From: Desulfobulbaceae bacterium
GTDB taxonomy: Bacteria; Desulfobacterota; Desulfobulbia; Desulfobulbales; Desulfocapsaceae
DNA length: 64,000 nucleotides
Assembly: GCA_026988015.1 (NCBI GenBank)
Contig: JALSMA010000016.1
Location: 1 to 64,000, forward strand
Reading direction: 5' to 3'
Part shown: in pieces, positions 56,244 to 59,343 of the stretch
How positions within the stretch are numbered: position 1 is the stretch's first letter
Layout: each line of letters begins with the position of its first letter
Position numbers and translations under genes: made by a program
Notes under the pieces: generated by a model
The model's database searches: none
What the model was told of the DNA's origin: nothing
Seen by the model: only the letters and a program-made list of their open reading frames with translations

Positions 56244-57875
56244 TCAGCTCTGCAACAACTTCCCCATCAACGATTGAGCTCTATTGAGAAACGGTCCAAG
56301 TGTGTCAATATCTAACGCGCTGATAACGATCCCCTCTTTTGCGGCCTCCATGAGCAATACTCTGTCATCTTCCACCTGATCCGCCTTATTAAAGAGTTTC
56401 AAACACGGGATCGATCCAATCTCAAGTTGCTGCAACAGTTCATCAACGACCTTCATCTGATCACGAAAGCAGGGATTAGAGAGATCTACGACATGAACCA
56501 GCAAATCAGCCTCTTCCAGTTCCTCAAGGGTTGCCTTAAAAGCTTGAAGCAGTTCAGCGGGCAGTTTTTTGATGAATCCCACCGTATCGGTTATCACAAC
56601 TTCCATATCTTTTGGGAAGCGGAGTCTGCGACTTGTCGGGTCAAGGGTGGCAAAAAGTTTATCCTCTGCCACAATATCGCTTTTAGTCAGGGTATTCAGC
56701 AGAGTGGATTTGCCAGCATTGGTATATCCCACAAGAGACAAAACAGGCAGGTCTTTTTTCCTGCGTCGCGACCTGCGCCGATAACGCTCTTTGCTTACCT
56801 TTTTCAGCTCTTTAGAGAGTCTAGCCAGGCGATCATTGATACGCCTTTTATCTATCTCAAGTTTTGTTTCTCCAGGGCCTCTTGCTCCTATACCGCCCGT
56901 CAGTCGAGACAGTGCATCATCGCGAGATGAAAGTCTGGGCAGCATATACTTCAACTGTGCCATTTCCACCTGAAGTTTTCCTTCACGGCTCAAGGCCCGG
57001 TGAGCAAAAATATCCAGAATAAGCTGCGTTCTGTCAATAACCCGAAGTTCACTGTAATCAGTGATGGAACGAATCTGGGAAGGATTCAGTTCCTGATCAA
57101 AGATAAGCAGGTTGGCTCCTAGCTGCAAAGCCTGGATAAGGATATCAGCAAGCTTTCCCTTCCCAAGAATAAGACGGGGGTTAACCTTACGTCTTTGTTG
57201 CAGTACGGTAGCCAGAACAACCACATCATCAGACCTTGCAAGTTCCACCAGCTCACGCATGGACTCTTCAGAAAGGATCTTCGATTGGCTGCTGACCCCG
57301 ATCAGGATTGCCCTATCCTGGCCGCTTGCAACTTCTTTGGCACTACTTTTTTTACTGAACTCCCCTTCCAGGGCATGAATAAAATTTTCAAAGGAATCTT
57401 TCTGATTGGCCGGGTGTACCGGAGCAAGGAAACCCCAATTTTCACCGTCACGGGTGTCGGGTAACAGGTGCACCGAATGAAGATCTTCGGGTGAACCTTC
57501 ACTGGAGACTTTCAGTACGGAAAGCATATCAAGCCGCAGAAAAAGAAGATCCATAAGATCTTCATCATTGATATCCTCACCGGCGAGATGGGTATGAACC
57601 AGTCGCAGCCCTTTCAAGCGGCCACGGCTTCTAACATGAGAGAGCTGGGGAATCATAATTCCCCTGAAATCACCAACTATAACAGCTTCAATCCTTCCAG
57701 ATCGATGCAGAAGCAGACCGATCTGCCGATTCATGTCAAAAGAGAGCTGACAGAGACTCCGGGCTGTTTCAGGGCTGATAACATCATCCCTGTTTCCCCG
57801 CTTGCCTCCAAGACGCTCCAGCTGTTTCAGCTGACTTTTTTTCAGGCCGCTGGTATTACCGCTGACAAGTGCTAT
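56244..57875 (-). CDS. hflX: GTPase HflX (apparently non-canonical start)
   Basis: Ribosome-associated GTPase. From the first ATG (57734) there are 496 residues, with GVSSQSK, RLILGKGKLADIL, DRTQLILDIFAHRA, the glycine-rich LTGGIGARGPGETKLEIDKRRI, and the G domain P-loop LVGYTNAGKSTLLN, DTVGF and NKAD. The frame continues 47 codons upstream of that ATG with typical HflX N-terminal sequence (LVSGNTSGLKKSQLKQLERL, VISPETARSLCQLS), but contains no ATG, GTG or TTG before a TGA. AGGAG at 57888-57884 stands eight bases before an ATA at 57875, which I take as the probable start. CTG codons downstream are alternatives, as is a shorter protein from 57734. Confidence 0.8.
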   Translation of the reverse strand: MALVSGNTSGLKKSQLKQLERLGGKRGNRDDVISPETARSLCQLSFDMNRQIGLLLHRSGRIEAVIVGDFRGIMIPQLSHVRSRGRLKGLRLVHTHLAGEDINDEDLMDLLFLRLDMLSVLKVSSEGSPEDLHSVHLLPDTRDGENWGFLAPVHPANQKDSFENFIHALEGEFSKKSSAKEVASGQDRAILIGVSSQSKILSEESMRELVELARSDDVVVLATVLQQRRKVNPRLILGKGKLADILIQALQLGANLLIFDQELNPSQIRSITDYSELRVIDRTQLILDIFAHRALSREGKLQVEMAQLKYMLPRLSSRDDALSRLTGGIGARGPGETKLEIDKRRINDRLARLSKELKKVSKERYRRRSRRRKKDLPVLSLVGYTNAGKSTLLNTLTKSDIVAEDKLFATLDPTSRRLRFPKDMEVVITDTVGFIKKLPAELLQAFKATLEELEEADLLVHVVDLSNPCFRDQMKVVDELLQQLEIGSIPCLKLFNKADQVEDDRVLLMEAAKEGIVISALDIDTLGPFLNRAQSLMGKLLQS

Positions 57876-57918
57876 AACAGATTCTCCTGAGGATCAAAAC
57901 ATATCACAAGACCGACCA

Positions 57919-58039
57919 GAAGCTTGTCCGACAAAAGGAACTTCTGTAAAATAAGTGCAGGCATATAACTTATATTCCAAGCATTATTTTTTTGAAATAA
58001 CGAAGACTTTTGGCGAAAGGTCATTCTCGGACAGCTTCC
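57919..58039. repeat. Inverted-repeat element between hflX and the aminotransferase gene
   Basis: GAAGCTTGTCCGACAAAAGG (57919-57938) and TTCTCGGACAGCTTCC (58024-58039) are imperfect inverted ends about 120 bases apart. The aminotransferase stop codon falls at the right end. The interior is AT-rich and non-coding. Confidence 0.4.
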
Positions 58040-59343
58040 TAGTTGCTAAGGTATTGTTTGATGGCAACAGCAATGGTTTCAAAAACTTTGCGAAAGACCT
58101 CTTCATCACGCTCCAGCAGTGTTACCCTGAACCCCTGCAGATCGGTGGCAAAAGAAGTCAGGGGCACCACACAGACCCCGGTGGCGCCCAGCAGGTAGTA
58201 AACAAAACGTTTATCCAACGATGTTCCTTCCGGGTTCACTAAAGCTTCAACCATCTCCCGTACTTCGTTGTTTTCAATGGGCAGTCTCTGGGAATGGGTC
58301 AAAGCACCATCTTCAAAGCAGACACTCATATAAAAAGCGCCATTAGGACGATTGACCAGCACCCCTTTCAAATCCTTTAATGAGTCATAGGCAATATTGG
58401 AAAACTTCTCATAACGGCGGATCCGTTCTTCAAGGTATCCCTGATACTCTGGATGTTGCACAACAGCAGGATACACAGACTGAGGCAGGGTTGTGGAGCA
58501 AACCTCAACCATTTTAGCATTGAGGATGGACTGAACATACTTGGCAAACATGGGATCTTTGTCCCCGTTATAAACTTCAATCCAGCCACAGCGGGAACCC
58601 GGCCAGGGCATCTCTTTGGAAACACCGCGCATGGCAATGGCCGGGACATCCCCTATCACATCGGAAAGGGGTGAAGTCGATGTGCCATTATAAACAATAT
58701 GATGGTACACCTCATCGCAAACGATGAACAGGTCGTACCGCTTGGCAAGTTCAACAATGGACTCGAGAATATGGGTTGGATAGACTGCCCCCGTCGGGTT
58801 GTCGGGATTAATAATCAAAATCCCGGCTACAGCAGGGTTATACTTGATGGATTTTTCAAGATCATCAAGATCAGGATACCAATGATGATTGGGATCGAGG
58901 ATGTATGTGAGCGGTTTATCTCCTGCATGTGCTGCTTCCGCTGAAGAATGGGTGGTATAGCTTGGTGTTGGAACCAAGACGCGAGCAGTTCTTTTCAGGA
59001 ACCCGAATATTTTTGAAATTGCATCACCAAGTCCGTTAAAAAACAGAATATCCTCGGGATCAATCTGGGCACCACCTCTCTTGTTGGTTTCTGCCGCAAT
59101 AAACTCACGGGTGGAAAGCACTCCCCTGGTCGGACAATAGCCATAGGTAGCATCCTGCATGACCGCATCTGAGACAATCTCCTTCATCCAGGAAGGAATC
59201 GCCTCTCCCTTCATGATGGGATCGCCTATGTTTTCCCAGTTGGTACTGAGACCGAGTTTCTGCAGTTTCATGCCAACATTCACGATATTACGAATCTCGT
59301 ATGTCAGCTCACCTGCACCTATATGGACTATATCTGTCCTCAT
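58039..59343 (-). CDS. Class I/II PLP-dependent aminotransferase
   Basis: 434 residues, fold type I. Substrate-side segment NWENIGDPIMKGE near 35, YGYCPTRGVLSTREFIA near 67, INPDNPTGAVYP near 170 (PLP O3' contact asparagine), CDEVYHHIVYNG near 200 and the PLP lysine in RGVSKEMPWPGSRCGW near 237. The family includes aspartate/alanine/tyrosine-type enzymes; the substrate is not readable. The ATG follows GGAGTAAAGTGA. It stands alone between hflX and an NtrC-type regulator. Confidence 0.85.
   Translation of the reverse strand: MRTDIVHIGAGELTYEIRNIVNVGMKLQKLGLSTNWENIGDPIMKGEAIPSWMKEIVSDAVMQDATYGYCPTRGVLSTREFIAAETNKRGGAQIDPEDILFFNGLGDAISKIFGFLKRTARVLVPTPSYTTHSSAEAAHAGDKPLTYILDPNHHWYPDLDDLEKSIKYNPAVAGILIINPDNPTGAVYPTHILESIVELAKRYDLFIVCDEVYHHIVYNGTSTSPLSDVIGDVPAIAMRGVSKEMPWPGSRCGWIEVYNGDKDPMFAKYVQSILNAKMVEVCSTTLPQSVYPAVVQHPEYQGYLEERIRRYEKFSNIAYDSLKDLKGVLVNRPNGAFYMSVCFEDGALTHSQRLPIENNEVREMVEALVNPEGTSLDKRFVYYLLGATGVCVVPLTSFATDLQGFRVTLLERDEEVFRKVFETIAVAIKQYLSN

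Follow-up and report, generated by a model that had tools for sequence, protein, structure and literature searches.

Translation of hflX in the window, by which we mean the whole stretch of 64,000 nucleotides analysed here, is predicted to start at an AUA codon (57875-57873, minus strand). This start, first suggested in the first-pass annotation, is strongly supported by comparison with relatives: ATA, ATC or ATT (together called AUH) occupies the position in 171 of 201 aligned distinct loci, and coding constraint begins there. The comparison shows that throughout the phylum selection keeps AUA, AUC and AUU where AUG would be expected, and the pattern suggests that HflX is held on a deliberately weak, possibly regulated start. 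The reading that we favour, and regard as probable, is that an AUA start, belonging to a selected AUH class, gives hflX a low and IF3-sensitive output as in infC.

Anatomy of the hflX start region

Read from ATA (57873..57875), the open reading frame of hflX covers 56244..57875 on the minus strand, corresponding to 543 codons and the stop. It is preceded in frame by a TGA (57894..57896), after which the frame runs TCC TCA GGA GAA TCT GTT ATA GCA CTT GTC AGC GGT AAT. The Shine-Dalgarno (SD) sequence AGGAG (57884..57888) is located 8 nt upstream of the ATA, a spacing that is kept in relatives. From the TGA onwards, the first ATG, GTG or TTG in the hflX frame is the ATG at 57732..57734, which encodes residue 48, lies 47 codons past the ATA and is probably unused. 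Both the head free of ATG, GTG and TTG and the AGGAG eight bases before the ATA had been described in the first-pass annotation, and both were borne out when the minus-strand frame was read again.

It is important to point out that the length of this head carries little weight by itself. With its 53 codons it is the longest head without a canonical start among the 45 ORFs of at least 200 codons in the window; in a 410-kb sample of the same genome, heads of at least 40 codons of this kind were found for 4 of 197 gene-like ORFs. With conservation set aside, the head is only mildly unusual, and it becomes significant because ATA, ATC or ATT is conserved at the start in the 171 loci. We have also considered a two-codon ORF, ATG-TTT-TGA (57902-57894, minus strand), that lies in the hflX frame just ahead of the SD sequence, as a leader or a recoded stop, and rejected it, since inspection by eye of the upstream sequences of relatives indicated that it is not conserved.

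The gene upstream of hflX (58039..59343, minus strand), identified as an aminotransferase gene by reading of the sequence, starts with ATG and was used as a negative control. The gap between the two genes contains a short interspersed repeat of about 120 bp (57924..58045), which is not part of the start signal. It is MITE-like, and the genome contains seven more incomplete copies that are 74-83% identical to it. By eye, the ends of the repeat seem to be inverted (GAAGCTTGTCCGA / TCGGACAGCTTCC).

Start codons and coding constraint in related loci

All comparisons of hflX starts were made within one phylum. At E 1e-100, 228 of the 257 genomes of the order contained a match to hflX; for the phylum, searched at E 1e-80, the figure was 328 of the 395 genomes sampled. 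The sample of loci was composed of the direct search matches, 100 stretches representing genus and family diversity, 20 more, and 6 weaker-matching long-form loci. The order contributed 40 loci from the 228 genomes with a match, and the phylum 80 from the 328, the latter chosen for family diversity among the best matches listed and with the start codon ignored. The GN..GLK motif near the N-terminus anchored 204 of 223 loci, which reduce to 167 distinct ones. Among the 19 unanchored loci, 10 (L027, L029-L037) are weak matches to other GTPase genes, with E values of about 1e-8 to 1e-10, one (L028) contains only the C-terminal part of hflX, and the remaining 8 had been missed by the motif pattern and were called by eye. 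The 201 loci thus include 34 called by hand, namely these 8, the 6 weaker-matching ones and the additional 20.

In these 201 distinct long-form loci the start codon is ATC in 84, ATA in 58, ATT in 29, ATG in 24, GTG in 3 and TTG in 1, which makes 28 canonical starts; two loci are counted as unassigned, L112, where the start is missing at a contig end, and L218. At least one AUH start of hflX is present in 48 of the 62 families, as distinguished by their codes, and 43 of the 62 have AUH only. In some loci a canonical codon is found close to the AUH codon, such as a TTG two codons upstream (L012) or an ATG three codons before the motif (L122, L126). Where a locus had both an AUH codon five codons before the motif and a canonical codon two codons after that AUH, the AUH was counted, a rule that matters for few loci, for example L050, L122 and L126. 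A stricter count is independent of this rule: among the 163 loci with a closed upstream frame, 106 lack ATG, GTG and TTG altogether from the upstream stop to the motif. L218 is one of the 106, yet it lacks AUH as well.

The first-pass annotation had named ATG at this codon in relatives, combined with a sequencing error in the window, as a finding that would speak against the start. The comparison came out the opposite way, most relatives having ATA, ATC or ATT. The genome of the window is an assembly of 3.15 Mb in 91 contigs, and this is the point in favour of a sequencing or assembly error that made ATA from ATG. However, ATA is the start in 16 of the 19 distinct hflX loci of the window's genus, in which every AUH start is ATA, and AUH is also found in named isolates (L079, L080, L088, L097), among them Desulfopila aestuarii with ATC (L080), and in families across the phylum. 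These relatives rule out an error, the probability of which we consider negligible.

The next question is whether the codon is a start or an internal isoleucine. In 166 aligned loci the start column contains I in 140, M in 11 and V in 2, one of the latter being a GTG start and the other a register shift. Four other columns with a majority of isoleucine, on the other hand, contain V in 27-49 (about 16-30%) and L in 8-51 (about 5-31%) of the 166 loci. The start codon varies as ATN, unlike the internal isoleucines of hflX, of which only 11.8% are encoded by ATA in the genus. Among 17 members of the genus, the 15 codons ahead of the ATA have a pN/pS of 0.91; the ratio drops to 0.19 over codons 2-47 and to 0.11 over codons 48-150, and purifying selection on the HflX protein, judged by these ratios, begins at the ATA codon.

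These values bear directly on the possibility that the true start is ATG 57734, the first canonical codon, and that the upstream conservation has another cause. This is the start obtained when ORFs are listed by ATG, GTG and TTG, but codons 2-47 evolve as protein. Of 32 aligned relatives, only 3 have Met at column 48 and 20 have Leu, and the position of the first canonical codon ranges from 7 to 92 codons in across the loci. Furthermore, the N-terminal domain of the HflX model draws one strand and two helices from residues 1-47, with a high pLDDT of 83-96, and since these residues are ordered parts of the fold, a start at 57734 would cut into the domain. Codon constraint, column 48 and the domain fold all contradict the downstream ATG, and we judge it very improbable as the true start.

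The SD sequences point in the same direction as the codon. A match of at least 4 bases, 5-9 nt before the codon, is found in 132 of 139 AUH loci (L084 has too little upstream sequence and was left out of this test). The pairing energy with the anti-SD sequence has a median of −8.9 kcal/mol for hflX with AUH, compared to −2.2 kcal/mol at random sites of the same genome; with the same measure, the medians are −6.6 and −6.9 for two ATG genes and −12.2 for infC. Energies of −5 kcal/mol or better are reached in 137 of 142 AUH loci. In the loci with canonical starts the SD sequence is often weak (for example L009 and L010), with 8 of 22 at −5 kcal/mol or better and a median of −2.7. Such a compensation between codon and SD sequence is clear in the raw counts but not significant in independent pairs, of which the tree supports 4; since significance is lost once kinship is accounted for, we keep it as a hint. 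Weak SD sequences with canonical starts would be in keeping with selection that holds hflX at a fixed, low output.

A tree of 164 loci requires at least 49 changes of the start codon, and at least 12 of these are between the AUH and the AUG/GUG types. Only 12 of the minimum of 49 changes thus cross this border, which means that the third bases A, C and T turn over while G is rarely taken. AUG is nevertheless tolerated at the hflX start, as the 28 canonical loci and the at least 12 switches demonstrate.

Another option considered was termination-reinitiation: ribosomes finishing the upstream gene would account for most of the hflX translation, the AUA serving as a coupled restart site in an ATAG overlap. 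The upstream ORF indeed ends within 3 nt before the start, or beyond it, in 20 of 79 loci, and the stop TAG overlaps the ATA in several genus members. However, 58 of the 79 have an upstream ORF of at least 200 codons ending within 400 nt, most with a gap; the corresponding gap in the window is about 160 nt. The upstream gene, an aminotransferase gene in the window's genus, also varies from group to group while the start stays the same, and the SD sequences are strong. Coupling to the upstream gene was consequently rejected as the reason for AUH, given that neighbours differ and gaps are common, and reinitiation as the main route seems to us improbable. As to the neighbours themselves, a putative multihaem cytochrome gene was identified by eye from the sequence upstream of hflX in L080, L083 and L098, and a gene for a SelB-like elongation factor in L130.

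Among the control genes, the start of infC is ATT or ATC in 30 of 30 loci from the same family of genomes, with a GGAGG-like SD sequence ahead; three of them (L237, L243, L246) were read as ATC one codon past the aligned position, and a few have an in-frame TTG or ATG beside or ahead of the SD sequence. The likeness to infC drawn in the first-pass annotation is therefore apt, the anatomy being the same. The aminotransferase gene, on the other hand, has ATG in 26 of 26 distinct orthologues, and glmS has ATG in 29 of 29 loci, a thirtieth, partial one being left out. We have also scanned 410 kb of the genome, consisting of the window and further sequence. The scan looked for genes with a coding signal before the first canonical start and, 12 or more codons upstream of that start, an AUH or CUG that follows an SD sequence. 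Two genes were returned, infC (ATT) and hflX (ATA). It should be noted that infC is here a positive control and not a discovery, as one of the stretches was picked for holding it.

The N-terminal domain of long-form HflX

The identity of the protein is clear from its core. Residues 188-528 (56292..57314, minus strand) match TIGR03156 (GTP_HflX) with 442 bits, compared to a cut-off of 216.75, and the Pfam domains GTP-bdg_N, GTP-bdg_M and MMR_HSR1 are present. A Foldseek search with the model returned HflXr (8uua, E 9.6e-33) and 5ady (E 1.0e-25), the latter of which we take to be the structure of E. coli HflX; the model thus matches HflX and HflXr on the 50S subunit. By analogy with the E. coli protein, HflX of the window is predicted to split 70S ribosomes.

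The first 187 residues have no match to a Pfam family at E 0.001. The first-pass annotation had called the 47 codons ahead of the ATG a typical HflX N-terminus. This stretch is indeed a genuine HflX N-terminus, although one that belongs to the long form found in this phylum and not to the short E. coli type. In the model, residues 1-165 (57381..57875, minus strand) form an N-terminal domain that is ordered from residue 1 and that resembles JAB1/MPN (JAMM) folds. Modelled alone, it has a pLDDT of 89.9, with values of 88-96 over residues 1-50. The best VIA-align row is P. furiosus JAMM1 (Z 8.2, 111 residues, rmsd 3.1 Å), and nearly all the other top rows are MPN folds; Foldseek, on the other hand, gave no match for this domain at E 0.001 or better.

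The JAMM motif is E..HxH..(S)xxD. In the 32 aligned relatives E63 is conserved in 29, H94 in 32, H96 in 30, S/T/N at position 103 in 32 and D106 in 32, and on sequence grounds these residues appear to fit the JAMM pattern. The Pfam JAB model has no match among the 32 long-form members at E values up to 1, and for this reason we call the domain JAMM-like and do not file it as a member of JAB1/MPN. If it binds zinc, a protease-like domain would be fused to a ribosome-splitting GTPase, and our guess is that the possible protease could be one reason for a low HflX level. There is also a practical consequence: as the start is AUH, gene finders restricted to ATG, GTG and TTG will truncate or mis-start HflX and cut the N-terminal domain.

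In a small sample, AUH starts are associated with long-form genes, since the six weaker-matching long-form loci all have ATA, while four short-form genes of the same phylum (L324-L327) have GTG, TTG or ATG ahead of the core. The extension reported for mycobacterial HflX is much shorter than the present domain, 39-58 residues (PMC12493154). Two side observations concern the hflX copies. Some genomes (G102, G205 and that of L108 and L123) contain two long copies, and L108 and L123 both start with ATC. In one short-form gene, L322, the frame is free of ATG, GTG and TTG from the upstream stop as far as the conserved core (AILVG).

Predicted initiation at AUA, IF3 and known systems

We now turn to how an AUA start of hflX may work. 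The good SD sequence would place the 30S subunit at the AUA, where initiator fMet-tRNA could pair with two of the three bases, and from what is established about IF3 the output of hflX is expected to be low. Since IF3 rejects AUH codons, a low ratio of IF3 to 30S subunits would then raise the output, as it does for infC. More speculatively, one signal may set both genes, such that when the anti-association factor IF3 is short, the 70S-splitting HflX would also be made. The proposal of the first-pass annotation that a weak start ties hflX synthesis to initiation fidelity is, by analogy with infC, plausible through IF3. That infC and hflX constitute a small phylum-wide regulon defined by start codons only is a bolder idea, which we regard as rather doubtful. 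If true, a shortage of IF3 relative to 30S subunits would lead to the synthesis of both IF3 and long-form HflX, and a single codon-level sensor would set the pool of free subunits.

Several published observations form the background to this scheme. IF3 represses non-canonical start codons, infC being autoregulated in this way, which is proven in E. coli, and in the case of the GTC-started SigR raised IF3 lowers and impaired IF3 raises the protein (PMC5472188). HflX of E. coli splits 70S ribosomes under stress, and IF3 keeps the subunits apart (PMC9067457); hibernating 100S ribosomes are also taken apart by HflX (PMC8579695).

The strongest competing explanation is simple attenuation with no feedback. 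According to it, AUH is used, but only to fix a steady, low output of a protein whose excess does harm, with no physiologically meaningful response to IF3. Published AUH starts mainly attenuate; AUA and AUU starts give about 10% of the AUG level in S. aureus reporters in poor medium (PMC13009471). That the AUG loci often have weak SD sequences (median −2.7 vs −8.9), as if the overall yield were kept low with both types of codon, fits this view, and so does the result that no conserved RNA structure was found at the hflX start in the 19 genus loci. Folding energies from −45 to +45 gave z values of −1.3 to 1.5 against mononucleotide shuffles, with no sign of an RNA thermometer or conserved structure, and the accessibility of the SD sequence followed no common pattern in these loci. 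However, IF3 acts on such codons generally, as described in PMC5472188, and some sensitivity would be hard to avoid. In addition, an equally low level would be reached with AUG and a weak SD sequence, but most loci have AUH, and almost all of these combine it with a strong SD sequence. We consider a constant setting a real possibility, although somewhat against the balance of our judgement, and retain an IF3-sensitive, infC-like output of hflX as the preferred reading.

To our knowledge, few bacterial genes besides infC keep an AUH start. Genes preferring non-AUG starts have been collected by Gvozdjak and Samanta (arXiv, 2020), reportedly with infC, rpoC and rnpA among them, and hflX may be listed there. 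The open-licence PMC papers searched, which cover the literature in part, yielded no report of an AUH start on hflX. As far as the literature found shows, hflX is a new AUH gene, conserved more widely than the known examples as they are described. Its occurrence in 48 of 62 families implies that a weak start codon can be long-lived, here in a gene for a factor whose work adjoins that of IF3, and it allows a direct test of the reach of IF3 beyond its own gene.

Known AUH genes are infC and pcnB (AUU; PMC1780047), ccpN (AUA), cvfC1 (AUU) and infC in S. aureus (PMC13009471), and infC and rnhC (ATC) in Listeria (PMC13068326). The closest parallel is infC, which like hflX combines an AUH start, a strong SD sequence and wide conservation with a product that acts on ribosomal subunits. 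In infC, however, the loop is closed by IF3 itself, as proven in E. coli (PMC5472188), whereas the controller of hflX would be another protein, and the SD sequence is stronger in infC (median −12.2 vs −8.9 kcal/mol). The genes pcnB, ccpN, cvfC1 and rnhC share the weak AUH start, with an extended SD sequence in the S. aureus cases, but their AUH codons are described as conserved at the level of species to genus or wider (PMC13009471, PMC13068326, PMC1780047), while that of hflX extends over much of a phylum. Streptomyces sigR resembles hflX in its conserved non-canonical start, and as a stress gene with an extended SD sequence it has a proven relation to IF3 (PMC5472188); it differs in codon class (GTC), in the gene concerned and in being confined to a single genus. 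Finally, lepA of Borrelia and Bacillus licheniformis is likewise a gene for a ribosome-associated GTPase, with a proposed AUU start that its full length requires (PMC1780047), but these are two isolated cases, whereas the AUH start of hflX recurs across the families of a phylum.
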